This document shows positions 46,254 through 64,000 of a DNA stretch of 64,000 nucleotides, in pieces. The translations under genes were made by a program, and so were the position numbers. The notes under the pieces were generated by a model that worked only from the letters and a program-made list of their open reading frames with translations, was not told the origin of the DNA and ran no database searches. The number at the start of each line of letters is the position of its first letter. The first letter of the stretch is position 1. Origin of the DNA: Exilibacterium tricleocarpae (lineage in GTDB: Bacteria; Pseudomonadota; Gammaproteobacteria; Pseudomonadales; Cellvibrionaceae); the NCBI RefSeq assembly GCF_007004655.1, contig NZ_ML660087.1, positions 632,617 to 696,616 of the forward strand, in the 5' to 3' direction.

Positions 46254-46964
46254 ATGATTACCATAGCTATCGTTTCAGATGTCAGAGTCTACGGGGAAGG
46301 ACTGGCTCAGGCGCTTTCGAGTTCCGATACCCTCCAGGTGGTCAGCATCGAAGGCAGTGTAGAGAACGCTGTCACTACCCTGAAACAGTACCCCACCGAT
46401 GCCGCTTTGCTGGATATGAGAATGGATGCCAGTTGTCGCCTGGCGGCGACACTGGTGCAGGCCTGCCCGGCGACCAAGTTACTGGCGCTGGCCATGCCGA
46501 AGGATGAAAATCATGTATTTGAATGTGTGGAGGCGGGGATAGCCGGCTATGTTCCCAAAGAGGCATCCACGGCTGAGGTCATAGACGCAATAACCAGAGT
46601 GAAAAACGGGGAGTTCTACTGTCCGCCTGAAATTGCAGCCTGTATCTTCAGCAAGGTTAGAAAAGTCGCCAAAGATGTAAAGACCCGGCAACCTCCAACA
46701 GTAAACCACGATGAGGAGTGTCTGTTTGCAGGGCTGACGAAAAGGGAGCGCCAAATCGTCTCACTGCTGGCTGACGGACTCTCCAATAAACAGATCTCCC
46801 GCGAACTGAACATCGAGGTCTCCACAGTCAAAAACCATGTCCACAACACGCTCGTCAAGTTGGGTGTGAAGAGTCGTACCCAGGCTGTATCGCTGTTGCA
46901 GCGCCTGTCTCGCCACAGTTTTTCTGAATCTTTAGATCTAGATCATCGCCTCGAGGTGCTGTAA
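46254..46964 (+). CDS. NarL/LuxR-type response regulator, putative cluster regulator
   Basis: The 236-residue protein has a receiver-like domain, ~1-120, and a LuxR helix-turn-helix, ~160-220 (LTKRERQIVSLLADGLSNKQISRELNIEVSTVKNHVHNTLVKLGV). In the receiver the phospho-acceptor Asp is present (ALLDMRM) and so is the Lys (YVPKEAS). The N-terminal acidic pair is weakened to SD, and the usual Ser/Thr of strand 4 is Ala (LALAMP). It may therefore signal atypically. No histidine kinase is adjacent. It is the first gene before the NRPS operon, so cluster regulation is plausible. Confidence 0.88.
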   Translation: MITIAIVSDVRVYGEGLAQALSSSDTLQVVSIEGSVENAVTTLKQYPTDAALLDMRMDASCRLAATLVQACPATKLLALAMPKDENHVFECVEAGIAGYVPKEASTAEVIDAITRVKNGEFYCPPEIAACIFSKVRKVAKDVKTRQPPTVNHDEECLFAGLTKRERQIVSLLADGLSNKQISRELNIEVSTVKNHVHNTLVKLGVKSRTQAVSLLQRLSRHSFSESLDLDHRLEVL

Positions 46965-47250
46965 CGAACTAGATCCAAGAGCGTGTACCCTTTCTGAATC
47001 ATTAATCCTTCATTAGATTTATTCAATTGTATTCTTAACCCTGGCAGACTTCTGTAGTAGACGGTGAGAGATAAATGCTGGGGGGCTTCTCTGTCCTACC
47101 GATATTTCCTTCCCCTTTGTCTTTTACAGAGAGCCATTGAAAGGTTGTAGCTGATGGATTTGGAGTTGTTGTAGTAGCCGATGTGCGGATATGGCGGTAA
47201 GTCCTATTGGGCGGCGCCTGGGTTGTTTTCTGATTAGGGATTGTGCACAA

Positions 47251-48171
47251 ATGAATAGGGTTGGTTGGAACAGCACTGTTGAAAATAATCAAAGCGGTTG
47301 TCATAAAAGTGACCACGTAGCAGAGGCGGAGATAAGAAAGCATATTAAAAATATGAATTTCGCGCCCATCTCGCACTATTTTAAACCTGCTTTGCAACAA
47401 GCCTACCGAGACGAGCTGACACATTCACAATTCGTGCTGGAGACTATAGCAAATATAGGCAATGTCGCCTTGGCTGAAAGACCGGCCCTACTTATATTGA
47501 TAATGACTGATGTCATTAGAAAACTTACCCGCCACGAGTCCGCTTTCTTCGATTGTGGCACTTTCCCATGGATAACTGACGTTGAAAAACTCTATCCCAG
47601 CATTGTCGATGAAGTGGAAGTTGCCTTAGACAACAGCGAAGTAATACCTGCTTTTCAGGAGATACAAAAAGAACAGGAAGAAATCACCTGCGATGAAAAA
47701 TGGAAAGTAGTACTGTTTAAAGGCTATGGAGAAGATATCGATAAAAACCTGGATCTCTTTCCAAAGACGGCACAGCTACTTAACCACATACCCGGCTGGA
47801 CAACCGGAATGTTCTCTATCTTGCTGCCCGGCAAGGAAATACCTGCCCACGTCGGCCCCTACGCCGGTGTTTTGCGCTACCACCTGGGGTTGAAAATACC
47901 CGATAACTGCGGCATCAGCGTCAGGGGCGAAGTGCGCACCTGGCAAGAGGGAAAAAGCCTGGTGTTTGACGATTCGTTTGAGCATTTCGCCTGGAACAGA
48001 TCCGGCAAAAAGCGTGTTGTGTTGTTCGTCGACTTCTTACGACCTTTGCCTTTTCCGCTTAACCTCCTCAACGAGTGGGTGGTCTTGGAGGTCATGAATA
48101 ACTCCGATTTTATTCGGGGGTTGGTTGATAACCTGCACAAATATAAAGCGCTGCATGAACTTTTAAATTAG
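47251..48171 (+). CDS. Aspartyl/asparaginyl beta-hydroxylase family Fe(II)/2-oxoglutarate oxygenase
   Basis: The C-terminal half carries the Asp_Arg_Hydrox pattern. One iron His is in IPAHVGPYAGVLRYHLGL, the distal His in FDDSFEHFAWN, and the oxoglutarate-binding Arg in GKKRVVLFVDFLRP. The N-terminal ~150 residues are helical and not recognised. Relatives hydroxylate Asp/Asn side chains or lipid A acyl chains (LpxO). In this cluster it may hydroxylate a peptide residue or the acyl chain. The start is uncertain: ATGs at 47191, 47251 and 47353 are all in frame, and none has a strong ribosome-binding site. Confidence 0.8.
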   Translation: MNRVGWNSTVENNQSGCHKSDHVAEAEIRKHIKNMNFAPISHYFKPALQQAYRDELTHSQFVLETIANIGNVALAERPALLILIMTDVIRKLTRHESAFFDCGTFPWITDVEKLYPSIVDEVEVALDNSEVIPAFQEIQKEQEEITCDEKWKVVLFKGYGEDIDKNLDLFPKTAQLLNHIPGWTTGMFSILLPGKEIPAHVGPYAGVLRYHLGLKIPDNCGISVRGEVRTWQEGKSLVFDDSFEHFAWNRSGKKRVVLFVDFLRPLPFPLNLLNEWVVLEVMNNSDFIRGLVDNLHKYKALHELLN

Positions 48172-48239
48172 TTGCAAATTTGTACACCTGGCTGGCGTTG
48201 CAGCCGCCGTTAGATGATTAGAGATAGTGTGAGTGGATA

Positions 48240-49367
48240 ATGGAATATGAAACGCGCGGCAGGCTGGCTTCCTATGAACCCGCCTTATTGGAAAATTGGT
48301 ACCGCTATAACTACTTCAACAACGAGATAGATATCAGCGGGAGCGGGGTAGAAGAATATACCTTTGGAGAAGTCAAAGAGATAGCGGGTTTTAGCTTTCG
48401 AGAGCTAGATCCTTTGCAGATCAGGGACTGTGAGACGGTCGGTGGCTTTGTTATCAGGAAACAGCTGGCTGACTTATTTGGAACCGGCAGTTCTGAAAGG
48501 GTGATGGTAACCAACGGTTCCAATGAGGCCCTGCAGTTGGTGGTACGCTCGATTCTCGCCGCCGGTGATGAAGTTGTCACCCAAGCCCCGTGCTATCACT
48601 GTCATGACAAGATTGCCCTGTCCATGGGTTGCACGGTAACAAAGTGGCAGTTTTCATCCCCTGAGAGTTTTGATCTGGATTTACATGACCTGCGTCGTCT
48701 TGTCACCAAAAAGACCAAGGCGGTTATCTTGAACTTTCCCCATAACCCAACGGGCGTCAGCATAACCCAACAGATGCTTGACGATATCGTCGATATCGTC
48801 AGGGAAAACGCTGCATTTCTGATCTGGGATGCCGCGTTTCAAGGGTTAACCTACGATACGCAGCCGTTGAGGGACCCTGTTAACGACTACGATAAAGTTG
48901 TAAGCGTGGGAACCTTTTCAAAAGTGTATGGCGCGCCCGGCCTGCGATTTGGCTGGATAATTGCTGCGCCGGAGATTCTAGCCGGCTGTGTCCGCCAGAA
49001 AGACTACGGCAATTTATTTGTGGCGCCCATTATTGAATTTGTAGCTGAAAAAATGCTGGCGAAAATCGATGACTTTTCGCAGCCGAGGTTGCTGCAGGCC
49101 GGAGACAACCGGGAAATTGTCGATACATGGATTCGGAAAAATAAACGGCTGGATTGGCGATTGCCGGACGGCGGTGTATGCGGGTTGATGACGTTGCCGC
49201 CGGGCATCGATGACACTGATTTCTGCAAAAGCCTGCTGGCAGAGTACGGTGTTTTGCTGGTCCCGGGAAGCTGTTTCGACAGACCTGGCTGCGTACGCTT
49301 GGGCTTTGGTGGAAACACCGCAGAATTGAAAGAAGGGCTTTGTAGATTAGGTAGGTTTATTAGATAA
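48240..49367 (+). CDS. VioD-like PLP enzyme, putative capreomycidine synthase
   Basis: A fold-type I aminotransferase-like protein of 375 residues. The PLP lysine is in SVGTFSKVYGAPGLRFGW, the NPTG loop in NFPHNPTGVS, and the pyridine-N Asp in FLIWDAAFQGL. The N-terminal third (ENWYRYNYF..EIDISGSGVEEYTFGEVKEIAGFSFREL) and VMVTNGSNEALQLVVRSIL resemble, from memory, viomycin VioD and streptothricin-type capreomycidine synthases. These cyclise 3-hydroxyarginine. The gene directly downstream is a VioC-like arginine hydroxylase, which strongly supports that reading. The family is sure; the reaction is inferred. Confidence 0.78.
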   Translation: MEYETRGRLASYEPALLENWYRYNYFNNEIDISGSGVEEYTFGEVKEIAGFSFRELDPLQIRDCETVGGFVIRKQLADLFGTGSSERVMVTNGSNEALQLVVRSILAAGDEVVTQAPCYHCHDKIALSMGCTVTKWQFSSPESFDLDLHDLRRLVTKKTKAVILNFPHNPTGVSITQQMLDDIVDIVRENAAFLIWDAAFQGLTYDTQPLRDPVNDYDKVVSVGTFSKVYGAPGLRFGWIIAAPEILAGCVRQKDYGNLFVAPIIEFVAEKMLAKIDDFSQPRLLQAGDNREIVDTWIRKNKRLDWRLPDGGVCGLMTLPPGIDDTDFCKSLLAEYGVLLVPGSCFDRPGCVRLGFGGNTAELKEGLCRLGRFIR

Positions 49368-49390
49368 ACAGTCATTCGAAGGACTGAGTT

Positions 49391-50434
49391 ATGAGTGAAA
49401 ATACGTTTGTGACATCCGATGAAGAGTGGGACAAAATACATACGTTGATAAAGTTTTACTTCGACGATTTCAAGGATTTCAACAGTGTTGATTTTTTGAA
49501 GAATCTACCGGCCGTCGCTTATCAGCTGCCGGCCAGGTTGGTGAAGTTCCTGAATGATTTCAAATACGATGTTTCCCCCTCCGGTTACTGTATCGTTTCG
49601 AACTTGAAAATCGATGATAAGACGCTCGGCTCGACGCCGCCCCACTGGCAGTTGCCTACCAACAATGATACCTGTGAAGAAATCGTGGTCGCCATGTGCC
49701 TTATATCAACGATACTGGGCGACATTTTCGGCTGGTTGACCCAGCAGGACGGCCGTATGGTGCACGATGTGCTGCCGATCAGGAACCTGGAGCAGGAGCA
49801 GCTTGGCTGTGGTAGCAAAGAAAAACTGTGGTGGCATACCGAAGATGCTTTCCACGAACTGCGGGGTGACTACCTAATGCTGATGTGCCTGCGCAATCAT
49901 CGCGCTGTACCCACCATAGTGTCGAGGCCGGACTATTCTAAGTTAACGACAAGTCAGCTCGACAGGCTTTTTGAAAAGCACTATACCATCCGGCCCGATA
50001 ACTCTCACAAGATTGAAAATGAATCTGAATCGCGTGCACTGATGCGTAAAAGCGGAATTTTGGGCGATGTGAGTGCGGCCTACAGAGAAGTGGTGCAGCG
50101 GGATACGCAACCGGAGAAAATAGCCGTTCTGTTCGGCGATAGAGACGATCCTTACCTGCGAATTGACCCCTACTTTATGGGGGAACCGGAAAATGCGGAA
50201 GCCGGAGATGCCTTGCACACGCTGATTGACCTTATCGACAATGCCATTGTTGAGGTACCCCTGAAGCAGGGGGAGTGCCTGATACTCGACAACTACAAGG
50301 TCGTTCACGGCAGGCCGGGGTTCGGCGCCAGCTACGACGGCACAGACAGATGGCTCAAGAGGATCAATATAACCAGAGATATCCGCAAGTGTCACCAGGT
50401 ATTGCAGGTCGCGCAACCCAGGATTATCTATTGA
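49391..50434 (+). CDS. VioC-like arginine beta-hydroxylase (clavaminate-synthase-like oxygenase)
   Basis: A 347-residue Fe(II)/2-oxoglutarate oxygenase. The facial triad is visible as HxE in KLWWHTEDAFHELRGDYLMLMCLRN and the distal His in ILDNYKVVHGRPGFGASYDGTDRWLKR. The Arg for oxoglutarate follows in LKRINITRDIR. This segment is characteristic of the VioC/OrfP/AsnO group, which hydroxylates Arg or Asn at C3. Pairing with a VioD-like gene (23 bp upstream) favours arginine. AAGGA precedes the ATG. It ends 49 bp before the NRPS start. Confidence 0.83.
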   Translation: MSENTFVTSDEEWDKIHTLIKFYFDDFKDFNSVDFLKNLPAVAYQLPARLVKFLNDFKYDVSPSGYCIVSNLKIDDKTLGSTPPHWQLPTNNDTCEEIVVAMCLISTILGDIFGWLTQQDGRMVHDVLPIRNLEQEQLGCGSKEKLWWHTEDAFHELRGDYLMLMCLRNHRAVPTIVSRPDYSKLTTSQLDRLFEKHYTIRPDNSHKIENESESRALMRKSGILGDVSAAYREVVQRDTQPEKIAVLFGDRDDPYLRIDPYFMGEPENAEAGDALHTLIDLIDNAIVEVPLKQGECLILDNYKVVHGRPGFGASYDGTDRWLKRINITRDIRKCHQVLQVAQPRIIY

Positions 50435-50483: not shown

Positions 50484-53400
50484 ATGGCATATCATCAAAA
50501 TAAGAATGTTAGTACCGTATTAGATAGTTTCGACTATCTCACAAAAAGTATACCCAAAGATAACGCGTATACTTTTTTAAACGAACAGGGGAAGGAAGAG
50601 GAGATTTCCTTCGCAGCGCTGTATGAAGAGGTTAATGCAGTGGCCAAAACGCTTGTTGAACTGGGTAATCCAGGCGACAGGGTTTTGATCCTGCTGGAGA
50701 GCAGCCTTGAATATGTGGCGGCTTTTTGGGGTTGTCTCTATGCGGGTATGCTCGCAGTGCCGCTGTACGCGCCCAAGCCCAATGACAAGCGGGATAGATT
50801 CTCCAGCGTAGTTGCGGATTGTACGCCGGAATTGGCATTTGTCCCCAGTGGTATGTCTGAGCAGGCACTGGATATTCTGCCGGCAGAGCTGCGTTGCATA
50901 AAGTATGCACTGGGTGACTTTAAAGATAGCCCTGATGTAAAGCTGCCGGTAGTCAGTCCGGAGGACGTGGCCTATCTCCAGTATAGCTCCGGCTCTACAG
51001 GTAAACCGAAAGGTGTGGTGGTCAGGCACCGGAATCTCCTGGCCAATGTTGATGCCCTAAATACCTGTGCGCGAGGTACAGGCGACGATGTGTTCGTCGG
51101 CTGGCTGCCTCTGTTTCACGATATGGGGCTTATTTCCATTGCTGTCTGGCCGTTGGTCATAGGCGCGCATTCAGTGTTTTTCTCGCCCATAAAATTTGTG
51201 CGACGGCCCCTGTTTTGGTTGCAGACCATTGGGCGGTTTAACGGAACTATATCTTTAGCGCCAAACTTTGCCTACGAACTCTGCGTCTCAAAGGCGCAGG
51301 ATGCCGATCGGATCAGCGCGTTGGATTTGGCTGGTTGGCGCTTTGCCCTCAATGGTGCCGAGCCGATACAAGAGAAAACCTTGAGTAGCTTTGCGCAGGT
51401 GTTCGCTGCTGCGGGGTTCAAGCCGAATGCCTTTGTAGCCGGATATGGCATGGCTGAGGCGACCTTGTTCGTGACCGCCGCTTACAGCGAGGCGGGGCCG
51501 AAAATCATCCACGTCGATAATGAAGCACTGCAAAATCGCATCGTCAAAACCACCGGCAGCCCCGGACAGGGGGCTACGGCAATTGTCGGCTGCGGGTGTC
51601 CCTCCGCGGACTACGATGTCATTATCGTCGACCCCGACACCTCAACTCGCCTGGGTGAGGACCGCGTCGGCGAAGTGTGGATCAGTGGTGAAAGTATTGC
51701 GACTGGATACTGGCGGCGAGCGTCGTTGAACGAAGCGGTTTTTCAAGCGTTTACCGACGGGCGTGCCGGGCCTTACTTCAGAACCGGCGACCTGGGTTTT
51801 TTTCATGATCAGCAGCTCTTTCTATCGGGCCGGCTCGCTGACCTGATCATCGTCAACGGCAGAAATGTCTATCCCCACGATATAGAGCTGAAGTCGAGTT
51901 CGATAGTCAGTGAATACGGGTTTGGCAACGCGGCTGCGATTGGTGTGGATGATAGAGGTACCCAGGGAGTCGTACTGATTCAAGAAGTCAGAAACAAGGC
52001 TGGTGACTTTGACCATCGTGCATTGGCTGAAAGGATACAGGCTGAAATATTCGCTGCATTTGACCTGCTCCTGAAAGCTGTGGTCATGGTGCCGAAAGGG
52101 GCCCTGGTAAAGACCACCAGTGGAAAGATAAGGCGCAGAGCCATAAGGGAGCGCTATCTGAGCGGCAGTCTGGCCACCATTTTTACCACGGATGTAACAC
52201 CGGAATATGACCTTACTCCGAATGTTGAGCTGCGCACGACCCTTGAAAAAGAACTGGCCCAAATCTGGGCTTTGCTACTGGACAGGGAGGTGACGTCCTC
52301 ACGAGCCAACTTTATTCATTTGGGTGGGGACTCGCTGCTGGTCAACCGCATGATTGCAATGGTGCGGGAAAAGTGGAGTATCGACCTCGATATAACCAGG
52401 CTGTTTGAGGAGCCGGTGCTATCCGCGGTAGCGCAGGCTATCCAACAGTGTTTGTCTGTCCGCACTGCTGAAAATAAATCGAGCGAACAAGAGCCGATTG
52501 ATACGATTGCGCTTTCGCAGCAACAGCAAGGCCTGTGGTTGTCGGATCAGATAGAAGGCGGCAGGGCCAAAAATAATATCTTTTTTGCCTTTCAACTGGA
52601 GGGGGAACTCGATCTCCGGGCGTTTGAAAAAACCTGCCGTAAAATGGTCGACCGGCACCCGAGTCTCCGAACACGTTTTTTCGTAGCCGCCGATGCCGAA
52701 CCGCAACAACAGGTATACGTCAACGCAGAGTTATCCGTCCCGCTAATCGAGCTTGACGAACCGGATGAGGCAAGCACGCAAAAGTGTTTACAAGCGCTGT
52801 TGCGAGAGGAGTCTGTAGCCACATTTGATCTCTCGGCAGACTGTATGTTGCGGGCCAAGCTGCTAAAACTTTCCGCCGCCCGTTACGCCGCCCTTTTTAC
52901 CCTACACCACATTGCGTCGGACGGCTGGTCTGTCGGCCTGTTTTTAAAAGAGTTTGGTGAAATCTACCAAGGCCTTGTAACCGGGCGGGACGCCAGTTTG
53001 CCGGTATTGACGGCGCAGTATAAGGACTACGTCATTCAGCAGCGCGGCGAGAAGATGTCAGATCGCACAGGTGCCGATATTGACTACTGGCGCCGGCAGC
53101 TCAGTTCGGCGCCGGAGGTGCACAGTCTCCCCCTGGACTTTAAGCGCAAAGAGGCCCAGTCTTATTCCGGTGCAGAGTACAGAACGGCTTTTGATGCGCG
53201 GATCACCGAACAGCTAAAGGCACTTTCCCGGCAACAAAATGCAACCCTGTTTATGGGCTTGCACGCGGCTTTTGTCGCTTTTTTAGCTTACTACAGCGGT
53301 GAAGAAGACGTTGTCGTCGGAACGTCTTCCGCCAATCGGCACGACGCCGATTTTTACGATGTCATCGGCTGTTTTGTCAATGTGCTTGCGTTGCGGGCCA

Positions 53401-56400
53401 ATATTGACGACAACGACAGTTTTACACAGTTGCTGACCCAATCCAAGCGCCTGTGTTTGGAGGCTTTTCATCACCAGAGTGTTTCTCTCGATCGCCTGAT
53501 CACGGATTTAAATCCACACAGAAGCTCGTCCTACCAGCCGCTGGTGCAGATACTGTTGGTGCTCCAAAACAACCAGCCGGCTTCACTAACTCTACCCGGG
53601 CTGTCATGCCGGTTACTGGAGGCGCCGACCCAGTACTCACAATTTGATCTCACGTTGGAGGTGTCCGAACAATCTGGTGAGTTGGCATTGAGTTGGAAAT
53701 TTAACCGGGAGATTTTCAGCAGCGTTAGCATTCAACGGCTGGCGGCACGTTTTGAGAGGCTGGTCAGGCAAATGGTGGCACAGCCGGAGCGGGGCGTATT
53801 CAGCTTGTCACTACTGTCCGGCGCCGAGCGGGACAGTATAGAAGCTCACGTTGGAGACATCCACAGCCGCCCTGTTGCCACTGCGCTGATGCACCAACGG
53901 TTTGAAGCTGCCGTCGAGGCCGACCCGCTGGCGATTGCCCTTACCTATGGTGAGGCAAACCTGAGCTACGGGGAATTGAACCGGCGGGCGAACCAATTGG
54001 CGCACTACCTGTTGGCACAAGGCGTCAGGCCCGATACGCTGGTGGGATTGTGCATGATGCCTGCGCCGGAGCTGGTGATCGGCATACTCGGGATATTGAA
54101 AGCAGGCGGGGCCTACGTGCCTTTGGACCCCAACAATCCCCGGGAGCGCCTGCAATACCAGTTGGATGATGCCCAACCGGCGCTGATCATTACCCAGCGA
54201 GCGGTGCTCGCTGCTGCGCCTGTCCCGCCGGCGCAGTCCTTATGTCTCGACGACAGCGATGTTGAAGCCACCCTGGTTGGCTACAGCGATGAAAACCCCG
54301 ATCCGGCGACGCTGGGACTCGACGCCGGCCATCTGATGTACGTGATTTACACGTCCGGTTCTACGGGACAGCCAAAAGGGGTATTGGTAGAGCACGGTCA
54401 CGCCAGTCGCCTGTTCGGCGCCACCGAAGACAGTTTTGGTTTCAACAGCCGGGACGTGTGGACCTTGTTTCACTCGGTGGCGTTTGATTTTTCAGTATGG
54501 GAGCTTTGGGGAGCCTTATCTTACGGGGGGCGCCTGGTCATTGTGGACAAGCTGCTGACTCGCTCACCGGAGGCGTTCTACGGGTTGCTGGAGCGGGAAG
54601 GGGTCACGGTATTGAACCAAACCCCCAGCGCTTTCAATCAATTCGTCGGCGTGGACCGATCGGCGGGCGAGTCCGGGTTGCGGCTGCGCTATATCATTTT
54701 TGGCGGTGAAGCACTGAACCCGGCGCTGTTGCAGCCCTGGGTGGCGGCACACGGCGATGTGGAGCCGCAGTTGATCAATATGTACGGCATTACGGAAACC
54801 ACCGTCCACGTCACCTATCGGCGCCTGTATCAGGCGGATACGGTTGCTGCTGACAGTGTGATCGGACACCCGTTGCCGGATCTGTCGGTATTGCTGCTGT
54901 CCGCTGGGCGGCAGCCGGTGCCCGCCGGCGTCGTGGGGGAGATATATGTCGGCGGTGCCGGCCTCAGCCGGGGGTATTTAAACCAGCCCGGCTTGACCGC
55001 GTCCCGTTTTATCGAGCACCCGTTTATCGAGGGACAGCGATTGTATCGAAGCGGCGATCTGGGACGCTACAACGAAGCGGGAGAATTGGTCTACCTCGGC
55101 CGCAATGATCAGCAGATAAAACTGCGCGGCTTTCGCATTGAATTAGGTGATATTGAAACACGACTGCTGGCCTACCCGGCCATTGACGCGGCGGCTGTGT
55201 TGCTGGAGCGGCGCGTTGAAAAACCGGATCGACTCCTGGCCTATGTCACCGCGACCGAGGGCGCGACCCTGGATGTGCCGAACTTGCACGCCTACCTCGG
55301 CGCTCACCTGCCCACTTATATGTTACCCGCGGCGGTGGTCGTATTAGAGTGTCTGCCTTTGACGGCAAACGGCAAACTGGATCGCAAGGCCCTGCTGCAG
55401 GCGGATATCGAGCCGCTGCCGTTGACAAACTACGCAGTGCCCGTGGGGCCTATCGAGCAAACACTCGCGGCCATCTGGGCAGAGTTACTGGATCGCGAAC
55501 AGATCGGTCGCAACGATAACTTCTTTGCCCTGGGCGGCCATTCGCTGCTGGCGGTACGTCTGGTCACCATGGTGCGGCACCGCCTGGGTCGCGAGCTGAA
55601 CGTGCGGGAGGTATTCGACCAGCCGGTGTTGCGGTCGCTGGCCTATCGGTTGGGCGGGTCGCACTTTGTGCTCCGTGAACGTATTGACGTGGCGGACCGT
55701 GGGGAGCCACTGCCGCTATCCTGGGCGCAACAGCGCCTGTGGTTCCTGGCGAAACTGGAGGGGGCGAATGCCGCCTATCATATCCCGGTGGCACTGCGGC
55801 TGAGTGGTTCCCTGGCGGTGGCAGCCCTTACCGGAACACTGAACACTATCGTATCCCGTCACGAAGCTTTGCGGACGGTATTCAGAGAAGAGCAAGGCGA
55901 GCCCCGACAAGTGATTCTACCGGCGGATCACTTTGCTTTTGTGCAAAAAGATATCAGCGATCTGGACGCAGAAGCTCGCCGGCGCGCACTTGCGGAAGAG
56001 ATCGAGACGGCGGCGACGGCGGCCTTTGATTTAACGGAGGGACCGCTGTTTCGCGGCCGCCTGTTGCGGCTGGCGGCAACCGATCACGTCCTGTTGCTGA
56101 CCTTGCATCATATTGTGGCTGATGGTTGGTCAATGCGCGTTCTAGTTGATGAAATCAACGCGCTCTATCGTTCTCATATTGCAAATGAATCGAATCCTTT
56201 ACCGCCGCCGGCGCTCCAGTATGGGGACTATGCTGCCTGGCAACGCGGCTGGCTGACGGGTAAAGCACTGCAGCGGCAGGAAGCCTACTGGCAATCCCAT
56301 TTACACGATGCGCCGGCACTGCTGGAGCTCCCCACCGATCGGCGCCGGCCGGCCGTGCAAAGCTATCGCGGCGACAGTATCGCCGTGGTGTTGCCGCCAA

Positions 56401-59400
56401 ATTTGAGCGGACAGGTAAAGGCACTGGCGCGCGCACAGGGGCTGACGGTGCATATGGTGTTGTATGCGGCCTGGGCGACGCTGCTGTCGCGGTTGAGCGG
56501 ACAGGACCAGATCGTAGTGGGTACACCGGTGGCAAACCGCCCAACCCGCGAGTTGGAAGAGCTTATCGGTTTTTTTGTCAACACCCTGCCGCTGCGGGTT
56601 GATTTAGGTGGTGATCCCAGTGTCGGCGAGCTTCTCGCCCGGGTAAAGGCGCTGACGCTGTCAGCGTATACGCATCAGGATGTACCGTTTGAGCGCATTG
56701 TGGAAATCACCCAGCCGCTCCGCAGTATGGGGCACAGTCCGGTATTTCAGGTGTTGTTCAATCTCGATAACGAATCCGCTTGTGCACTTGAGTTGCCCGG
56801 TTTGCAAACGGCAGCCATGGAAGTCAGCACCTTGATTTCCAAGTATGATCTCAGCCTGTTGTTGGAAGAGAAGGCCCACGGCATTGCCGGACGACTGGAA
56901 TATGCGACGGATTTGTTTGACCGACAAACGGTCGCGGGTTGGGCGGGCAATTTTACCTGCCTGCTGGAGAATCTGTGCGCCGACCTGGAGGCGTCGGTTC
57001 GACAACTGGATTTGCTGCCGGCAACCGAGCGGCATCGATTGGTGTATGAATTCAACCGCACCGCGGTGGCCTATCCGCAAGACAGCCTGATCCACCAACT
57101 ATTTGAAACACAGGTTGCCGCGACACCGACGGCCACCGCCCTGGTGTATCAGGATCAGACACTGAGTTACGGCGAGTTGAACGCGCGGGCCAACCGCCTG
57201 GCGCACTACCTGATAACCCAAGGCGTAACACCGGATACCCTGGTGGGGTTATGTGTAGAACGGGGTCTCGACATGCTGGTCGGTGTGTTGGGCATTTTAA
57301 AGGCCGGCGGCGCCTACGTGCCTCTCGACCCCGGCTACCCGGACGCCCGTCTCCGTTACCAGATCGACGATGCGGGACTGGCACTGGTGCTGACGCAAGG
57401 CGAGTTAGCCGCGCGCCTGCCGGCCGCGACAGCGCTGTGTCTGGACGATCCGCAGCTACAGCAGACGCTGGCGGCTTACCCTGTGGACAATCCGCCGCCG
57501 TCGGCGACCGACCTTACCGCCAGTCACCTGGCCTACGTGATCTACACCTCCGGCACCACCGGCCAACCCAAGGGCAGTCTGCTGACCCACCGGGGCTTGG
57601 TAAACCTGTCGCTGGCGCAACAGCGCGAGCTGCGGGTCGAGCCCGACAGCCGGGTGTTGCAATTTGCCTCGGCGGCGTTTGACGCCTCGGTGTGGGAGTG
57701 GAGCATGAGCCTGTGCCACGGCGCCCGCCTGGTGATACCGAGTGCAGCGGTGCAAAAGGATCCGCAACAGCTGACAGAATTAGTGGTCGCTGCGGGGGTC
57801 ACCCACGCCACCTTGCCGCCGTCGCTACTGGCACACCTTGAGCGAGCGAACTGGCAATCGGTACAGGTATTGGTAGTGGCGGGGGAGAGCTGCCCGCTGG
57901 CGCTGGCCAGGCAGTGGCGAGAGGGCCGCATGTTTGTCAACGGCTATGGACCGTCGGAAGCGACTGTGTGTTCGAGCATGATGACGTTTACCGAGAGCAG
58001 CGAATGCCTGACGATCGGCAAGCCGCTGCAAAATGTGCAGTACTATGTGGTTGAATCCGTCGTTGAAACCACGGATGAGACCACGGATGAAAACGCGGGT
58101 AAAAGCGTAGTTGAAAACTTAGCCGAGAGTATAACAGATGCTGCGCGCGAAGGTGCCGATGAGAAGCGCCTGCGCCTGGTGCCGCAAGGTGTCCCCGGAG
58201 AATTGCTGATCGGCGGTGCGGGTCTGGCGCGGGGCTATTTAAACCGCCCCGAACTGACGGCGGCCAAGTTTATTCGCAATCCGTTTGACGCCGGGGGCAG
58301 CGAGCGACTGTACCGCACCGGCGATCGGGTGCGCTGGACGGCACAGGGCGAGTTGGAATTTCTCGGCCGGGTGGACCAGCAGGTAAGCCTGCGGGGCTTT
58401 CGCATCGAGTTGGGCGAGATTGAAACCCATCTGGCGGCCCATCCAAATGTTGCTGCAACCGTGGTGGTTTTGGACACAGGCGATGGCGGCGAGCAGCAGT
58501 TAATCGCCTACCTGACGCCGGCCGCCGAACCTAACCCGGCACCGGGGGTGCTGCGCGATTACCTGCACAGTCGCCTGCCGGCGTATATGATTCCCGCCGC
58601 CTTCGTCGTTCTGGCGTCGCTGCCGCTCACCGCCAGTGGCAAGGTAGACCGCCGGGGCCTGCCGGCACCGGACGCCGCCAGTTTTCTGCACCGCCGTTAC
58701 GAGGCGCCGGTGGGTGAGATCGAAGAGGGGCTCGCTGAGGTCTGGCGGGAACTGCTGAGTGTCGAACGGGTCGGGCGCGAAGACAGTTTTTTTGAATTGG
58801 GCGGCCATTCCCTGCTGGTGGTGCAGTTGATCGCACGCCTGCAGGCGAAGGGGCTGCAGGCCGACGTGCGGGCGGTATTTACCGCGCCGAAGCTGCGGGA
58901 ATTGGCGAGGGCAATAAAAAAACAGTTGCACGGCAACTTTAAGGCGCCTGCCAACCGGATACCCGCCGACTGCACCGCCCTGACACCGGACCTGTTGCCG
59001 TTGGTGAGTCTCGAGCAGGCCCAGATCGATGAGATCGTAGCCCGCATACCGGGCGGCGCCGAAAATATCGAAGATATCTATCCGCTGGCTCCATTGCAGG
59101 AGGGCGTGCTGTTTCACCATATGCTCAGCGAGCCGGCCGCCGGAGACACCTATATCCTGCCCATTCTGTTGGCCGCCAATGACCCGGCCCTGTTGCGACA
59201 GTTGCCGGACGCTCTGCGAGCAGTGATTGCCAGGCACGATGTGTTGCGCACGGCGGTGCTGTGGGAAGGGTTACCGCAGGCGGTACAGGTGGTGCAGCGA
59301 AGCGCCGAGCTTGCGGTCACCGCCATCGAACTGGACCCGGACATCGATCCCCGCACCCAATTGCAACAACGCATCGCACCGGAAAAGCTTTGGATGGCGT

Positions 59401-62400
59401 TGTCGCAGGCACCGCTGTTGCAGTTGGAGACCGCGGCCGATCCGCAATCGGACCAATACTTCGCCATTATCTACCTGCATCACATCGTCAACGATCATGT
59501 GGGGCTGGAGGTCCTGATTGAAGAGCTGGGTTTGTTTCTGGAAGCGGACGCACTCGCGTTGCCCGCGCCGATTCCCTACCGGGAATTTGTCGCCCATACC
59601 CTGGCGCTGGCGCAAAGCGCAGATACCGCGGCCTATTTCCGCGCGCGCCTGGGCGATGTAGAGGAACCGACACTGCCGTTCGGCCTGGCGGATATTCAGG
59701 TGCAGGCGGCGCAGATCAGCGAGGCCCGGTTGGCGGTCGAGCCGGCGTTGGCGGCGGCCATTCGCGCCCGGAGCCAGCGTCTGGGCGTCAATGCGGCGAG
59801 TGTCTTTCACCTCGCCTGGGCATTGGTGGTGGGTCGCTGCAGCGATCGCGATGACGTCGTGTTCGGCACGGTTTTATCCGGGCGCCTGCAGGGCACCCGC
59901 GGTGCCGAGCGAATGCTGGGACTATTTATCAACACCTTGCCGCTGCGGCTGTCGTTGCGCGGGTCGGTCTCGGACTGCCTGGAGTCGACTTACCGCGAGC
60001 TGGTGGGACTGCTGGATTACGAACAGGCGTCGCTCAACGCGGCCCAGGCCTGCAGTGCGCTGGTGGGGGACACGCCGCTATTCAGCGCGCTGATCAATTA
60101 CAGGTACTCGGGCATCACCGAAACTGATAACCGTTTAAATGCGTCAGGTATCGAAGTGCTGGTCGCCCAGGAGCGGGGCAACTATCCCTTTGATCTGTCG
60201 GTGGATGATTTTGGCGCGGCGGGTTTCAGGCTGGTGGTGCAGGTGGAAGCGGCGCTGGACCCGCAGCGTATCGCCGCCTATATGCACTGCGCACTGGAGG
60301 GCATTGTCGACGCTCTGGAGCGGGCGCCGCAGCGTTCGCTGGCGGAACTCGATATCCTGCCGCCGGCCGAACGCGAGTGTTTGTTGCACACGTTCAACCG
60401 CAACGGCGGCGCGGCGATCGCTCCCGCCTTGATTCACCAGGTGTTTGAGGCGCAGGTTCTACGCGACCCCGAAGCCCGTGCCGTCGAGCACGGCGACGCG
60501 CACCTCAGCTACGGCGCCCTCAATGCCCGGGCCAATCAACTGGCCCGCTATCTGCGTGAGGGCGGTGTCGTCCCCGGCGATCGAGTGGGATTGTTGTTGC
60601 CGCGCTCACTGGACTTTGCCATAGCGATGCTGGGTGTTTTAAAAGCCGGCGGTGTCTACGTGGTGCTGGACCCGGAGCATCCCGGGGCGCGCCTGCAGCA
60701 AATTGGCGAGCGGGCGCAACTGCACACCTTGATCAGCGGCCGGAGCCTGGCGCCGGCGTGGTGGGCCGGTAACCTGTTGTGTGTAGACGCCGCAGAGGTA
60801 CGGAGCGCCCTGGCCCGCCAGTCAGTTGATAATCCGGACGTGACACTGGACGCGCGCGCGCCGGCTTTTGCATTCTTCACCTCCGGCTCCACCGGCACGC
60901 CCAAAGGCGCCCTCAACAGTCATGCCGGTGTCGTCAACAATATGCAGGCCATGGCGCGGGAGCTGGCACTGACACCGGCGGACCGGGTATTGCAATTTGC
61001 ATCGTTGGGCTTCGATGTCGTGATCGAAGAGCTGTATCCGGCCTGGTTCGCGGGCGCGACGGTGGTGCTGCGCGACGAAGAGGGGCTGCTGGACTGCGAG
61101 CAGTTACAGGCGCTGTTGCGGCGCACGGCGGTCACGGTATGCGAGCTGATAACCGGTTACTGGGCGCAATGGCTAGCGTATCTGTGCCAGCGGCGGCTGC
61201 GGCCGCCGGCGACGTTGCGCCGCCTGATGGTGGGCGGCGATCGGGTGGCGCTGTCGCTTTATCAACAGTGGCGGGCGTTTGGGATTCCACTGATCAATGT
61301 CTTTGGACTGACAGAGGCAGGTTGTACCTCGCTGGTTTATGCTGCTGGTTGTCGAGAGCCTTCAGCTTTGGATAGAGAGCCTTCAGCTTTGGATAGAGAG
61401 CCCTCAGCTTTAGATAGAGAGCCTTCAGCTTTAGATAGAGAGCCCTCAGCTTTAGATAGAGAGCCTTCAGCTTTAGGTGAAGAGCCCTCAGCTTTAGGTG
61501 GAGAGCCTTCGGCTTTAACCCGGGAGCTTTCAGCACCAGAAAAAAAACCTTCAACTGCAAGTAAAAGTCGCTCAACGCCGACCGAAAAAACGGCGGCTTA
61601 CTTACCCTGCGGCCGTCCCCTCGTCAATACCCAGGCCTATATACTGGACCGCCGCGGCGAGCCGGTGCCCCTGGGTGTCGTGGGTGAACTCTATCTCGGC
61701 GGAGCGGGTGTGGGTCTCGGTTATCTGGACGAGCCCGAGTTAAGCGCGGCCCACTTTGTGCCGCATCCGTTTGATCCAACTTCGGGTAACGTCTGCAGAA
61801 CCGGCGATCTGGCGCGCTGGCGGGCAGACGGTGAGTTGGAGTTTATCGGGCGGCGCGACTGCCAGGTAAAAGTGCGGGGCTTTCGCATCGAACTGGAGGA
61901 AATCGAAGCGCAATTACTGCGCGACGCCGCTGTGGGTGCAGCGGCGGTCGTGTTGCACGAAGAGCAAGACCGCGGCAATACCGCCACCGAGCCCGGTCAT
62001 TTGATTGCCTGGGTCAGCCCGGCCGACAGTGCCGGCTTGGACACCGAACAGGTGCGGCGCAACCTGGCGCAACGGCTACCGGCTTATATGCTGCCGGCGG
62101 CGATTTTCGAGCTGGCTGTCTTGCCGTTGACCGCAAGTGGCAAGGTGGATCGCCCGGCACTGCCGGCGCCGGATCTGCGGGCCCTGGCGGCGGCCTACGA
62201 AGCGCCGGTGGGCGCCACCGAAACGGTGTTGGCAGAAATTTGGCAAGCGCTGCTCGGGGTAGAACAAGTCGGACGGCACGACAATTTTTATCAACTGGGC
62301 GGCCACTCCCTGCTGGCCATCCGCCTGGTGACAAGCGTGCAATATCGCCTGGGCCGGGCGTTGAGCCTCCGGGACGTGTTTGAATACCCGGTGCTGAAAG

Positions 62401-64000
62401 ACTTGGGCCACCAGTTGGATGCTGCGCACTTTATCACCCGGCAACCGCTCGAGGTGGTGGCCAGAGACGAGCCGCTGCCGCTGTCCCGGGCGCAGCAACG
62501 GTTGTGGTTTATCGCCAGGCTCGAAGGCGCCACCGCGGCCTATCACGTGCCCGGCGCCCTGCGCTTAAACGGTTCCCTGTCAGTCACCGCGTTAAACGCA
62601 ACACTGACGACCCTTGTGATGCGCCACGAAGTGTTGCGCACCGTGTTTACCGAGGTGCACGGCGAGCCCCGGCAAGTGATTGGGGCGGCGCAGGACTTTG
62701 TGTTAACCCAACTGGATTTAAGTCATCTGCGCGGCAAGGCCCGCCGGCGGGCGGTCAGGGCGCAGGTGCAGGAAGAGTCGACAGCGCCGTTCGATCTGAG
62801 TCAGGGTCCTTTGTTTCGCGGCCGCCTGCTGCGGTTATCGACGCGCGAGCACGTGTTGCTGTTGACCCTGCACCATATCGTCGCCGACGGCTGGTCCATG
62901 GACATATTGATCCGCGAAATCAATACCTTGTACCGGGCCTACTGCGCCGGCGCAGTCAACCCGTTGCCGCCGCTGGCCATTCAATATGCGGATTATGCGG
63001 TCTGGCAGCGGCGCTGGCTGGCGGGTGAAGTGCTGGAGCGGCAGGAAACCTATTGGCAAAACCATTTACAGGAGGCGCCGGCGCTGCTGGCGTTGCCCAC
63101 CGACCGGCCGCGCCCGGCACAGCAGAGCTACCGCGGCGACAGTGTTGCGGTAACGCTGGCGAGCGATACAGTCGCACAGGTCAAAGCGCTGGCGCAGGCG
63201 CAGGGCTTGACGGTGCATATGGTGTTGTTGGCCGCCTGGGTCGTGGTGTTATCGCGGTTAAGCGGGCAGGAGCGGATCGTGGTGGGCACGCCGGTGGCGA
63301 ATCGCCAGCGCCACGAGTTGGAAGGACTGATCGGCTTTTTCGTCAACACCCTGCCGCTGTGTGCCGATCTCAGCGGCAATCCCACCGGCGTCGAGTTACT
63401 GCGGCGAGTCAAGGCACTGAGTCTGGCAGGTTACGCGCACCAGGACGTACCGTTTGAGCGCATAGTGGAAGTGATGCAGCCGGCCAGGAGCATGAGCTAC
63501 AGTCCGCTGTTCCAGGTGTTGTTCGATCTCGATCACGAATCGCAAACCACGCTGTCGCTGCCGGGGTTGCAGTTGCAGGCCGAGGCCGTCGAAACCGCCG
63601 CTTTCAGCGCGCGTTTCGATCTCAGTCTGTCGCTGGTGGACGGCGCCGCGGGCATCGGCGGGGTATTGCGCTATGCGACGGATTTGTTCGATCGCAAAAC
63701 GATTGTGCGGTGGGCGGACTATTTCACGCGCGTGGTAGCCGCGCTGGTAAGCGATGTCGAAATACCGGTACAGCTTTTGTCGTTACTGCCGGACAGCGAA
63801 CGGGATCAGTTGCTGCGCAACGGGCGCCACCCGACCGCCGTCAAAGCCTCTGTCGCACCGAAAGTGGAGCTATTGCACGCACTGTTCGAGGCTCAGGTGC
63901 GTAAACACGGTGCGGCCCCCGCCGTGATTTACGAAGAACACACCCTCAGCTACCGGCAGCTAAACCGGCGCGCCAACCGGCTGGCCCGTTACCTGATGGC
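50484..64000 (+). CDS. Giant lipopeptide NRPS, FAAL-initiated, at least four modules, cut by right edge
   Basis: Open for 4505 codons to the window end. Approximate domains in residues: FAAL 1-575 (YLQYSSGSTGKPKG, GWLPLFHDMGLI); ACP 585-655 (LGGDSLL); C1 670-1110 (HHIASDG); A1 1130-1640; PCP1 1655-1725; C2 1735-2185 (HHIVADG); A2 2205-2720; PCP2 2740-2810; C3 2825-3290 (starts RIPADCTALTPDLLPLV and LAPLQEGVLFHHML, dual C/E type; HHIVNDH); A3 3316-3890; PCP3 3905-3975; C4 3995-4435 (HHIVADG); A4 from ~4460. Specificity codes aligned by hand to GrsA: A1 DFWNIGMVH (threonine), A2 DAWTVAGVC (Phe/aromatic-like), A3 DVEEMGVCT (acidic, suits a cationic residue). An acyl-adenylating start implies a lipopeptide. 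The ATG at 50484 lacks a good ribosome-binding site, and the frame is open a little upstream. Confidence 0.93.
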   Translation, partial: MAYHQNKNVSTVLDSFDYLTKSIPKDNAYTFLNEQGKEEEISFAALYEEVNAVAKTLVELGNPGDRVLILLESSLEYVAAFWGCLYAGMLAVPLYAPKPNDKRDRFSSVVADCTPELAFVPSGMSEQALDILPAELRCIKYALGDFKDSPDVKLPVVSPEDVAYLQYSSGSTGKPKGVVVRHRNLLANVDALNTCARGTGDDVFVGWLPLFHDMGLISIAVWPLVIGAHSVFFSPIKFVRRPLFWLQTIGRFNGTISLAPNFAYELCVSKAQDADRISALDLAGWRFALNGAEPIQEKTLSSFAQVFAAAGFKPNAFVAGYGMAEATLFVTAAYSEAGPKIIHVDNEALQNRIVKTTGSPGQGATAIVGCGCPSADYDVIIVDPDTSTRLGEDRVGEVWISGESIATGYWRRASLNEAVFQAFTDGRAGPYFRTGDLGFFHDQQLFLSGRLADLIIVNGRNVYPHDIELKSSSIVSEYGFGNAAAIGVDDRGTQGVVLIQEVRNKAGDFDHRALAERIQAEIFAAFDLLLKAVVMVPKGALVKTTSGKIRRRAIRERYLSGSLATIFTTDVTPEYDLTPNVELRTTLEKELAQIWALLLDREVTSSRANFIHLGGDSLLVNRMIAMVREKWSIDLDITRLFEEPVLSAVAQAIQQCLSVRTAENKSSEQEPIDTIALSQQQQGLWLSDQIEGGRAKNNIFFAFQLEGELDLRAFEKTCRKMVDRHPSLRTRFFVAADAEPQQQVYVNAELSVPLIELDEPDEASTQKCLQALLREESVATFDLSADCMLRAKLLKLSAARYAALFTLHHIASDGWSVGLFLKEFGEIYQGLVTGRDASLPVLTAQYKDYVIQQRGEKMSDRTGADIDYWRRQLSSAPEVHSLPLDFKRKEAQSYSGAEYRTAFDARITEQLKALSRQQNATLFMGLHAAFVAFLAYYSGEEDVVVGTSSANRHDADFYDVIGCFVNVLALRANIDDNDSFTQLLTQSKRLCLEAFHHQSVSLDRLITDLNPHRSSSYQPLVQILLVLQNNQPASLTLPGLSCRLLEAPTQYSQFDLTLEVSEQSGELALSWKFNREIFSSVSIQRLAARFERLVRQMVAQPERGVFSLSLLSGAERDSIEAHVGDIHSRPVATALMHQRFEAAVEADPLAIALTYGEANLSYGELNRRANQLAHYLLAQGVRPDTLVGLCMMPAPELVIGILGILKAGGAYVPLDPNNPRERLQYQLDDAQPALIITQRAVLAAAPVPPAQSLCLDDSDVEATLVGYSDENPDPATLGLDAGHLMYVIYTSGSTGQPKGVLVEHGHASRLFGATEDSFGFNSRDVWTLFHSVAFDFSVWELWGALSYGGRLVIVDKLLTRSPEAFYGLLEREGVTVLNQTPSAFNQFVGVDRSAGESGLRLRYIIFGGEALNPALLQPWVAAHGDVEPQLINMYGITETTVHVTYRRLYQADTVAADSVIGHPLPDLSVLLLSAGRQPVPAGVVGEIYVGGAGLSRGYLNQPGLTASRFIEHPFIEGQRLYRSGDLGRYNEAGELVYLGRNDQQIKLRGFRIELGDIETRLLAYPAIDAAAVLLERRVEKPDRLLAYVTATEGATLDVPNLHAYLGAHLPTYMLPAAVVVLECLPLTANGKLDRKALLQADIEPLPLTNYAVPVGPIEQTLAAIWAELLDREQIGRNDNFFALGGHSLLAVRLVTMVRHRLGRELNVREVFDQPVLRSLAYRLGGSHFVLRERIDVADRGEPLPLSWAQQRLWFLAKLEGANAAYHIPVALRLSGSLAVAALTGTLNTIVSRHEALRTVFREEQGEPRQVILPADHFAFVQKDISDLDAEARRRALAEEIETAATAAFDLTEGPLFRGRLLRLAATDHVLLLTLHHIVADGWSMRVLVDEINALYRSHIANESNPLPPPALQYGDYAAWQRGWLTGKALQRQEAYWQSHLHDAPALLELPTDRRRPAVQSYRGDSIAVVLPPNLSGQVKALARAQGLTVHMVLYAAWATLLSRLSGQDQIVVGTPVANRPTRELEELIGFFVNTLPLRVDLGGDPSVGELLARVKALTLSAYTHQDVPFERIVEITQPLRSMGHSPVFQVLFNLDNESACALELPGLQTAAMEVSTLISKYDLSLLLEEKAHGIAGRLEYATDLFDRQTVAGWAGNFTCLLENLCADLEASVRQLDLLPATERHRLVYEFNRTAVAYPQDSLIHQLFETQVAATPTATALVYQDQTLSYGELNARANRLAHYLITQGVTPDTLVGLCVERGLDMLVGVLGILKAGGAYVPLDPGYPDARLRYQIDDAGLALVLTQGELAARLPAATALCLDDPQLQQTLAAYPVDNPPPSATDLTASHLAYVIYTSGTTGQPKGSLLTHRGLVNLSLAQQRELRVEPDSRVLQFASAAFDASVWEWSMSLCHGARLVIPSAAVQKDPQQLTELVVAAGVTHATLPPSLLAHLERANWQSVQVLVVAGESCPLALARQWREGRMFVNGYGPSEATVCSSMMTFTESSECLTIGKPLQNVQYYVVESVVETTDETTDENAGKSVVENLAESITDAAREGADEKRLRLVPQGVPGELLIGGAGLARGYLNRPELTAAKFIRNPFDAGGSERLYRTGDRVRWTAQGELEFLGRVDQQVSLRGFRIELGEIETHLAAHPNVAATVVVLDTGDGGEQQLIAYLTPAAEPNPAPGVLRDYLHSRLPAYMIPAAFVVLASLPLTASGKVDRRGLPAPDAASFLHRRYEAPVGEIEEGLAEVWRELLSVERVGREDSFFELGGHSLLVVQLIARLQAKGLQADVRAVFTAPKLRELARAIKKQLHGNFKAPANRIPADCTALTPDLLPLVSLEQAQIDEIVARIPGGAENIEDIYPLAPLQEGVLFHHMLSEPAAGDTYILPILLAANDPALLRQLPDALRAVIARHDVLRTAVLWEGLPQAVQVVQRSAELAVTAIELDPDIDPRTQLQQRIAPEKLWMALSQAPLLQLETAADPQSDQYFAIIYLHHIVNDHVGLEVLIEELGLFLEADALALPAPIPYREFVAHTLALAQSADTAAYFRARLGDVEEPTLPFGLADIQVQAAQISEARLAVEPALAAAIRARSQRLGVNAASVFHLAWALVVGRCSDRDDVVFGTVLSGRLQGTRGAERMLGLFINTLPLRLSLRGSVSDCLESTYRELVGLLDYEQASLNAAQACSALVGDTPLFSALINYRYSGITETDNRLNASGIEVLVAQERGNYPFDLSVDDFGAAGFRLVVQVEAALDPQRIAAYMHCALEGIVDALERAPQRSLAELDILPPAERECLLHTFNRNGGAAIAPALIHQVFEAQVLRDPEARAVEHGDAHLSYGALNARANQLARYLREGGVVPGDRVGLLLPRSLDFAIAMLGVLKAGGVYVVLDPEHPGARLQQIGERAQLHTLISGRSLAPAWWAGNLLCVDAAEVRSALARQSVDNPDVTLDARAPAFAFFTSGSTGTPKGALNSHAGVVNNMQAMARELALTPADRVLQFASLGFDVVIEELYPAWFAGATVVLRDEEGLLDCEQLQALLRRTAVTVCELITGYWAQWLAYLCQRRLRPPATLRRLMVGGDRVALSLYQQWRAFGIPLINVFGLTEAGCTSLVYAAGCREPSALDREPSALDREPSALDREPSALDREPSALDREPSALGEEPSALGGEPSALTRELSAPEKKPSTASKSRSTPTEKTAAYLPCGRPLVNTQAYILDRRGEPVPLGVVGELYLGGAGVGLGYLDEPELSAAHFVPHPFDPTSGNVCRTGDLARWRADGELEFIGRRDCQVKVRGFRIELEEIEAQLLRDAAVGAAAVVLHEEQDRGNTATEPGHLIAWVSPADSAGLDTEQVRRNLAQRLPAYMLPAAIFELAVLPLTASGKVDRPALPAPDLRALAAAYEAPVGATETVLAEIWQALLGVEQVGRHDNFYQLGGHSLLAIRLVTSVQYRLGRALSLRDVFEYPVLKDLGHQLDAAHFITRQPLEVVARDEPLPLSRAQQRLWFIARLEGATAAYHVPGALRLNGSLSVTALNATLTTLVMRHEVLRTVFTEVHGEPRQVIGAAQDFVLTQLDLSHLRGKARRRAVRAQVQEESTAPFDLSQGPLFRGRLLRLSTREHVLLLTLHHIVADGWSMDILIREINTLYRAYCAGAVNPLPPLAIQYADYAVWQRRWLAGEVLERQETYWQNHLQEAPALLALPTDRPRPAQQSYRGDSVAVTLASDTVAQVKALAQAQGLTVHMVLLAAWVVVLSRLSGQERIVVGTPVANRQRHELEGLIGFFVNTLPLCADLSGNPTGVELLRRVKALSLAGYAHQDVPFERIVEVMQPARSMSYSPLFQVLFDLDHESQTTLSLPGLQLQAEAVETAAFSARFDLSLSLVDGAAGIGGVLRYATDLFDRKTIVRWADYFTRVVAALVSDVEIPVQLLSLLPDSERDQLLRNGRHPTAVKASVAPKVELLHALFEAQVRKHGAAPAVIYEEHTLSYRQLNRRANRLARYLM
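58048..58172 (+). repeat. Low-complexity insertion in adenylation domain A2
   Basis: About 40 extra residues (beginning VVESVVETTDETTDENAGK and ending DEKRLRLVP) interrupt A2 between NVQYYVV and the VPGELLIGG motif. The DNA contains short repeats such as ACCACGGATGA twice and GTTGAAAC variants, which suggests growth by slippage. Confidence 0.65.
61356..61565 (+). repeat. 21-bp in-frame minisatellite in adenylation domain A3
   Basis: Ten consecutive 21-bp units encode heptads: five exact EPSALDR copies, then EPSALGE, EPSALGG, EPSALTR, ELSAPEK and KPSTASK, decaying toward the 3' side. They lie between the FGLTE (A5) motif and GRPLVNTQAYILD, where A domains normally have only a few residues. 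Confidence 0.93.

Follow-up and report, generated by a model that had tools for sequence, protein, structure and literature searches.

The window analysed here, a 64,000-nucleotide stretch of a contig (C1) of the probably marine gammaproteobacterium Exilibacterium tricleocarpae, carries a PLP enzyme of the capreomycidine-synthase family, an adjoining arginine-type oxygenase and the beginning of a large NRPS, all on one strand (Table 1). The adjacency of the first two genes, the oxygenase motifs and the short distance to the NRPS had been claimed in a first-pass annotation of this DNA, and all were recovered: the two open reading frames lie 23 bp apart, the HTEDAFH, VVHGRPGF and DGTDRWLKR motifs are present in the oxygenase, and an in-frame ATG of the NRPS is found 49 bp past the oxygenase stop codon. 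The NRPS frame leaves the window at its right edge, which is also the end of the contig.

Two further genes precede the pair. The OlsC/LpxO-like gene ends 68 bp ahead of the PLP gene on the same strand; its product scores 206.7 bits against the NCBIfam OlsC model, under the cut-off of 450, and is possibly a fatty-acyl hydroxylase, to judge from its sequence family. The response regulator is a possible regulator of the cluster by virtue of its position. Farther upstream, positions 31789-34851 encode a 1020-aa Eco57I/N6-methylase-type restriction-modification protein. The GMP synthase encoded in the window shares 88-89% identity with proteins assigned to Pseudomaricurvus, Pseudoteredinibacter, Maricurvus and Cellvibrionaceae, in keeping with a Cellvibrionaceae-like and likely marine host. 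The GC content rises from 46.2% (OlsC-like gene) through 50.3-50.4% (PLP/oxygenase pair) and 52.9% (FAAL-like NRPS part) to 60.7% in the remaining NRPS, and these steps between 47191-50434 and 52300-64000 may reflect separate histories of the parts.

Table 1. Features of the gene cluster in the window
Feature	Position	Strand	Remarks
LuxR/NarL-type response regulator	46254..46964	+	Pfam GerE and Response_reg
OlsC/LpxO-like Asp_Arg_Hydrox oxygenase	47191..48171	+	Pfam PF05118, 159.8 bits
PLP enzyme, VioD/OrfR capreomycidine-synthase family	48240..49367	+	375 aa, ATG start
Fe(II)/2-oxoglutarate oxygenase, OrfP-type arginine pocket	49391..50434	+	347 aa, ATG start
NRPS, cut off by the contig end	50484..64000	+	4 Condensation, 5 AMP-binding and 4 PP-binding stretches
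Fatty acyl-AMP ligase-like loading domain	50508..52172	+	NCBIfam PRK09192, PRK05850
Adenylation domain 1, Thr-like	53958..55487	+	DFWNIGMVH
Adenylation domain 2, Phe-like	57138..58757	+	DAWTVAGVC
Adenylation domain 3, candidate capreomycidine pocket	60381..62282	+	DVEEMGVCT
Assembly junction, entry to a collapsed adenylation-domain repeat	63874..64000	+	127 bp shared exactly with the C36 end

The PLP enzyme passes the curated capreomycidine synthase model TIGR03947 narrowly, by 6 bits (397.0 bits; cut-off 390.9), and all three further clade members that were scanned (P0003, P0026 and P0038) score just under this cut-off. Its best match among solved structures is OrfR (E 2.8e-70). A tree was built from 12 of the 40 clade proteins, 4 other listed homologues, 37 of the 41 near loci (without the short-contig loci L042 and L049, the fused L051 and the partial L052) and 8 of the 39 far loci. 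The enzyme falls within a 53-row VioD/OrfR family (support 100) with GntC, itself a long branch, outside; it groups neither with the far aminotransferase-like rows, a placement that would have spoken against the initial family assignment, nor with GntC. By alignment, it retains equivalents of the OrfR active-site residues, namely the PLP lysine (Lys228), Glu18 (equivalent to OrfR Glu15) and Ser35, with residue roles as described in the available portion of PMC10367076. The Ser31-Ser32 pair of OrfR is unmatched, Gly34-Ser35 standing in its place. Glycine occupies the Ser31 position in 39/39 gap-free clade rows (window counted), each with an SGSG motif, versus 3/49 gap-free rows of the others. 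Because OrfR Ser31 is replaced by Gly, we regard the enzyme as a divergent variant, set apart from VioD itself.

The oxygenase has OrfP as its best solved-structure match (E 1.1e-70), and both sequence and fold comparison, which included the arginine desaturase NapI, place it nearest to OrfP, VioC and CmnC, before the Asn oxygenase (242 bits for OrfP versus 111 for AsnO); the proposed separation from the Asn hydroxylases is borne out. Its tree comprised 14 of the 49 clade proteins and 6 other listed homologues. The protein contains the Fe triad H149, E151 and H306, the guanidino-binding D259 and the carboxylate-binding R324, residue roles in arginine oxygenases being those given in the text of PMC9513391 that could be consulted. 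At all 12 of the Fe, 2-oxoglutarate and Arg positions compared, including the suggested arginine contacts, it equals the OrfP row L050, a locus identified as OrfP/OrfR by full-length PDB matches (784 and 864 bits). The protein falls short of the curated VioC model TIGR03946 (326.7 bits; cut-off 418.6), and its pocket triad is Gln137/Gly139/Tyr261, the OrfP state; the VioC triad Leu156/Ser158/Asp270 is absent from it and occurs in 5 of the 52 rows compared. Of the VioD/VioC-type pair originally proposed, membership in the capreomycidine-synthase family stands, and the VioC label gives way to an OrfP-type assignment. Since the VioC cut-off is failed and the pocket residues are those of OrfP, double hydroxylation is as possible as single; Gln/Gly/Tyr is the common state among the rows compared and thus does not predict one versus two hydroxylations. 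A GntD label was also considered for the oxygenase, which scores 394 bits against NCBIfam NF041363 (cut-off 345); it was dropped because VioC (L046, identified by PDB match) and OrfP (L050) exceed the same cut-off with 398 and 415 bits.

Close homologues of the PLP enzyme (P0001-P0040; 52-66% identity) include named members from Marinicella and Marinobacter, and those of the oxygenase (P0121-P0169; 48-59% identity) include one from Microbulbifer. For 17 of the 39 clade PLP proteins a clade oxygenase comes from a source with an equally long longest contig, and judged in this way the linkage of the two genes holds for 17 or more of the 39. Among the 80 loci listed, an oxygenase relative is present at 29 of the 41 with a PLP identity of at least 35%, and on the fetched stretches of the 39 with lower identity there is none. 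This contrast, together with OrfR and OrfP being the best solved matches, argues that the pair is not a chance association. Two Lentzea loci (L033, L034) each have two oxygenase relatives from different clades per single VioD-family locus. In Microbulbifer taiwanensis (L024, 9971-11095) the VioD-family gene adjoins genes for a FAN1-like nuclease and a helicase, and no NRPS adenylation-domain match occurs in the 11.4 kb fetched around it.

Within the sampled taxonomy the oxygenase is sparse: at E 1e-30 the organism's own genome is the only match in samples of 390 (order), 369 (class) and 398 genomes (phylum), and at E 1e-3 two of 58 relatives match, these being the own genome and one weak match of 51 residues. 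In a plasmid search all oxygenases among the matches listed (20 of 26 records) were below 60% identity, and three PLP records were found. The chemistry had been introduced as best known from actinomycetes, a view that needs widening at the gene level, given that PLP relatives from cyanobacteria, Acidobacteriota, Microbulbifer and a Gemmatimonadetes MAG are among those listed. Capreomycidine synthase genes are also noted in a cyanobacterium (PMC9332814) and in a haloarchaeon (PMC6856266).

By motif, the NRPS reads FAAL-like-T, C-A(Thr-like)-T, C-A(Phe-like)-T, C/E-A(DVEE)-T and C-A(start), so that an AMP-binding domain and a carrier stand before the first condensation domain. The FAAL-like domain matches PRK09192 over residues 9-563 (552.9 bits, below the cut-off of 600) and PRK05850 (576.4 bits, below 775), and the named FAAL models span its whole length. 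An in-frame 21-bp tandem repeat of 7.8 copies (61354-61517; EPSALDR repeats) lies within adenylation domain 3. The last 127 bp of C1 are identical to the last 127 bp of contig C36, the first 127 bp of C36 are identical to the first 127 bp of contig C3, and no other near-identical matches to these contig ends were reported in the genome. A pair of exact, equally long overlaps is the trace to be expected where a k-mer assembler has collapsed a repeat, from which we infer the order C1-repeat-C36-repeat-C3, an order based on k-mer overlaps and not on reads.

The condensation domains of the three contigs (4 + 5 + 10 = 19) would then form one line of 19 modules with 17 readable and two unread adenylation domains and a terminal pair of thioesterase stretches. 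In the proposed contig order, positions 1-9 carry Thr-like, Phe-like, DVEE, unread, Thr-like, presumably Asx-like, DVEE, DVEE and unread domains, and positions 10-19 a Phe-like domain, two DLFNNALTY, one DVWHFGLID, four DVEE, one DVWHFSLVD and a last Phe-like domain. The Thr-like and Phe-like labels were taken from Table 3 of PMC8399532, the part of that paper used here, where comparable codes differ at 1-2 of 9 positions. The genes that come after the NRPS encode an ABC exporter, an oxygenase of the TauD type, an HlyD protein and an RND pump; this oxygenase (G000:C3:38177-39190; L137 18677-19690), a second one of TauD type that comes immediately behind the NRPS and exporter genes, has no NCBIfam match at E 1e-30.

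The pocket DVEExGV[CV][TS] occurs in seven of the 17 readable adenylation domains of the proposed line, as DVEEMGVCT or DVEELGVCT. These codes do not match DPQD[VI]GIVN, which alignment gives for CmnG and the VioG relative, and the idea that DVEE is the known capreomycidine code was dropped on this ground; CmnG has been solved with L-capreomycidine, according to the available text of PMC11253843. None of the six DVEE code strings occurs in the literature searched. The DVEE code is nevertheless linked to capreomycidine-synthase loci: of the 61 adenylation domains read at listed VioD-family loci, a streptothricin locus among them, 11 have it, versus 0 of 69 control domains (Fisher p 1.4e-4, with rows that are related and not independent). 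The 61 domains were found by motif, 49 on 27 listed loci and 12 on three plasmid loci, the motif for the set of 49 being slightly narrower than that for the plasmid and control sets. The controls were 28 best matches from the class, 13 domains from other clusters of the own genome and 28 best matches from the order, drawn from at most 30 loci kept per search and not from every match; all are from the class, the order or the genome of the window, whereas most VioD-family loci are actinobacterial. The other 50 of the 61 domains lack the pocket, which would be anticipated were the residue loaded by a subset of the modules.

Two of the 11 pocket-bearing domains adjoin OrfR/OrfP genes. At L050, a streptothricin locus by its enzymes, a DVEE domain lies between OrfR and OrfP; in a plasmid cluster of S. 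globosus that also encodes a lysine 2,3-aminomutase, a DVEE A-T protein is encoded between vioD and vioC. The two remaining adenylation domains of this plasmid cluster have the codes DTENVGTLV and DTEVVGTLV, which we take to serve beta-lysine. In the adenylation-domain tree, 16 DVEE rows form two separate groups that need two origins, so that one substrate would have been reached twice, although a quick tree of this kind may err. A related pocket with Ser for Asp235 was seen at the VioD-family loci L025, L175 and L077 (SAEEVGVAT; SAEIGSIAT in L077).

Taken together, these observations suggest that a divergent OrfP/OrfR-like capreomycidine pair heads a very large synthetase, likely one for a lipopeptide. 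The oxygenase would hydroxylate free L-arginine at C3, and possibly at C4 too, and the PLP enzyme would cyclise the hydroxyarginine to capreomycidine or 4-hydroxycapreomycidine. The NRPS is likely primed with a fatty acid; its DVEE-type adenylation domains, which from their sequences likely load capreomycidine, would place the cyclic residue in a long lipopeptide, and the two terminal thioesterases would release it. We consider it probable, on sequence grounds, that the pair supplies (4-hydroxy)capreomycidine and that the adjoining NRPS incorporates it through the DVEE domains. The product is best read as a polycationic lipopeptide in which capreomycidine or its 4-hydroxy form occupies several positions. 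A fully specified version, namely a 19-residue polycationic lipopeptide built from cyclic guanidines and released by two thioesterases, with 7-9 (4-hydroxy)capreomycidines, four of them consecutive, and a DVEE pocket arisen apart from that of CmnG/VioG, is offered tentatively, as we hold it somewhat more likely to be wrong in one of its details than right in all.

The substrate of the DVEE domains is where another reading competes most directly. The pair could make the cyclic residue while the seven DVEE domains load Arg or another cationic residue, the cyclic one entering at the two unread positions or nowhere. Such an assignment would fit the different code of CmnG/VioG, and it gains from the best non-own adenylation domains of the class search, DVENVGGIT and DVENVGVIT in genomes G447 and G591: no oxygenase relative was reported there at E 1e-30, which makes an Arg-like substrate possible. 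Domain A4 of the faulknamycin synthetase, predicted for Arg/Orn/Lys in Table 3 of PMC8399532 (the portion consulted), likewise has Glu278. On the other side, Asp235 with two acidic residues fits a cationic alpha-amino acid, and the concentration of the pocket at VioD-family loci and its absence from the controls, as well as the DVEE A-T protein between two pathway genes in the streptothricin-type plasmid cluster, favour the cyclic residue, and we judge loading of plain arginine or a similar residue to be rather unlikely.

Two other readings concern the enzymes themselves. With Gly for OrfR Ser31, the PLP enzyme might stop at elimination or catalyse some other reaction, the ring closing on the NRPS or never. 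The SGSG motif shared by the gap-free clade rows agrees with this, and capreomycidine formation on the NRPS is described for faulknamycin and muraymycin in the accessible part of PMC10367076; retention of Glu18, Lys228 and the second of the two serines, together with the oxygenase linkage across the clade, estimated from equal longest contigs, speaks against it, leaving a non-cyclising enzyme improbable. Still less credible, to the point of being very improbable, is a route like that of GntC/GntD, in which the PLP enzyme would make enduracididine from 4-hydroxyarginine and the oxygenase would hydroxylate the enduracididine. The GntD cut-off exceeded by the oxygenase does not discriminate, as VioC and OrfP exceed it too, and the PLP enzyme fails the GntC model NF041364 clearly (227 bits; cut-off 415), in agreement with the position of GntC on the tree.

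Capreomycidine has been linked to few antibiotics, most of them from actinomycetes and with about one such residue each. If the proposed pathway is correct, a Gram-negative assembly line that incorporates this residue repeatedly would represent a new class of cationic lipopeptides. Confirmation of the DVEE pocket would provide a second sequence signature for finding capreomycidine residues, and would point to a function for the A-T protein encoded next to the streptothricin arginine enzymes. No gammaproteobacterial capreomycidine lipopeptide appeared in the capreomycidine literature searched, which consisted partly of excerpts and lay outside most subscription papers.

Among known systems, streptothricin biosynthesis is the closest: OrfR and OrfP are the best solved matches of the two window proteins, the 12 compared pocket positions are identical and a DVEE adenylation domain stands beside that pair as well. 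In contrast, identity to OrfP/OrfR is 35-37% in structural alignments, the predicted product is an NRPS lipopeptide and OrfR Ser31 is Gly in the window enzyme. The viomycin enzymes VioC and VioD and the capreomycin enzyme CmnC belong to the same two families and share arginine hydroxylation followed by PLP-dependent cyclisation, whereas the window oxygenase is under the VioC cut-off and is without the VioC Leu/Ser/Asp triad, and the adenylation code of VioG/CmnG differs from DVEE. The Nostocales and Sulfidibacter loci (L013-L016, L018, L041) resemble the window in having adjoining PLP and oxygenase genes with NRPS adenylation domains nearby, and the DVEE domain of L014 groups with that of the window; however, their PLP enzymes (42-45% identity in Nostocales, 39% in L041) lie outside the clade of the window enzyme. 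Finally, a marine sponge association yielded acyl-epicapreomycidine, an acyl-(2S,3S)-capreomycidine, as reported in the available text of PMC10532625; it is, like the product proposed here, a lipidated capreomycidine from the sea, but consists of a single residue with a decenoyl chain.
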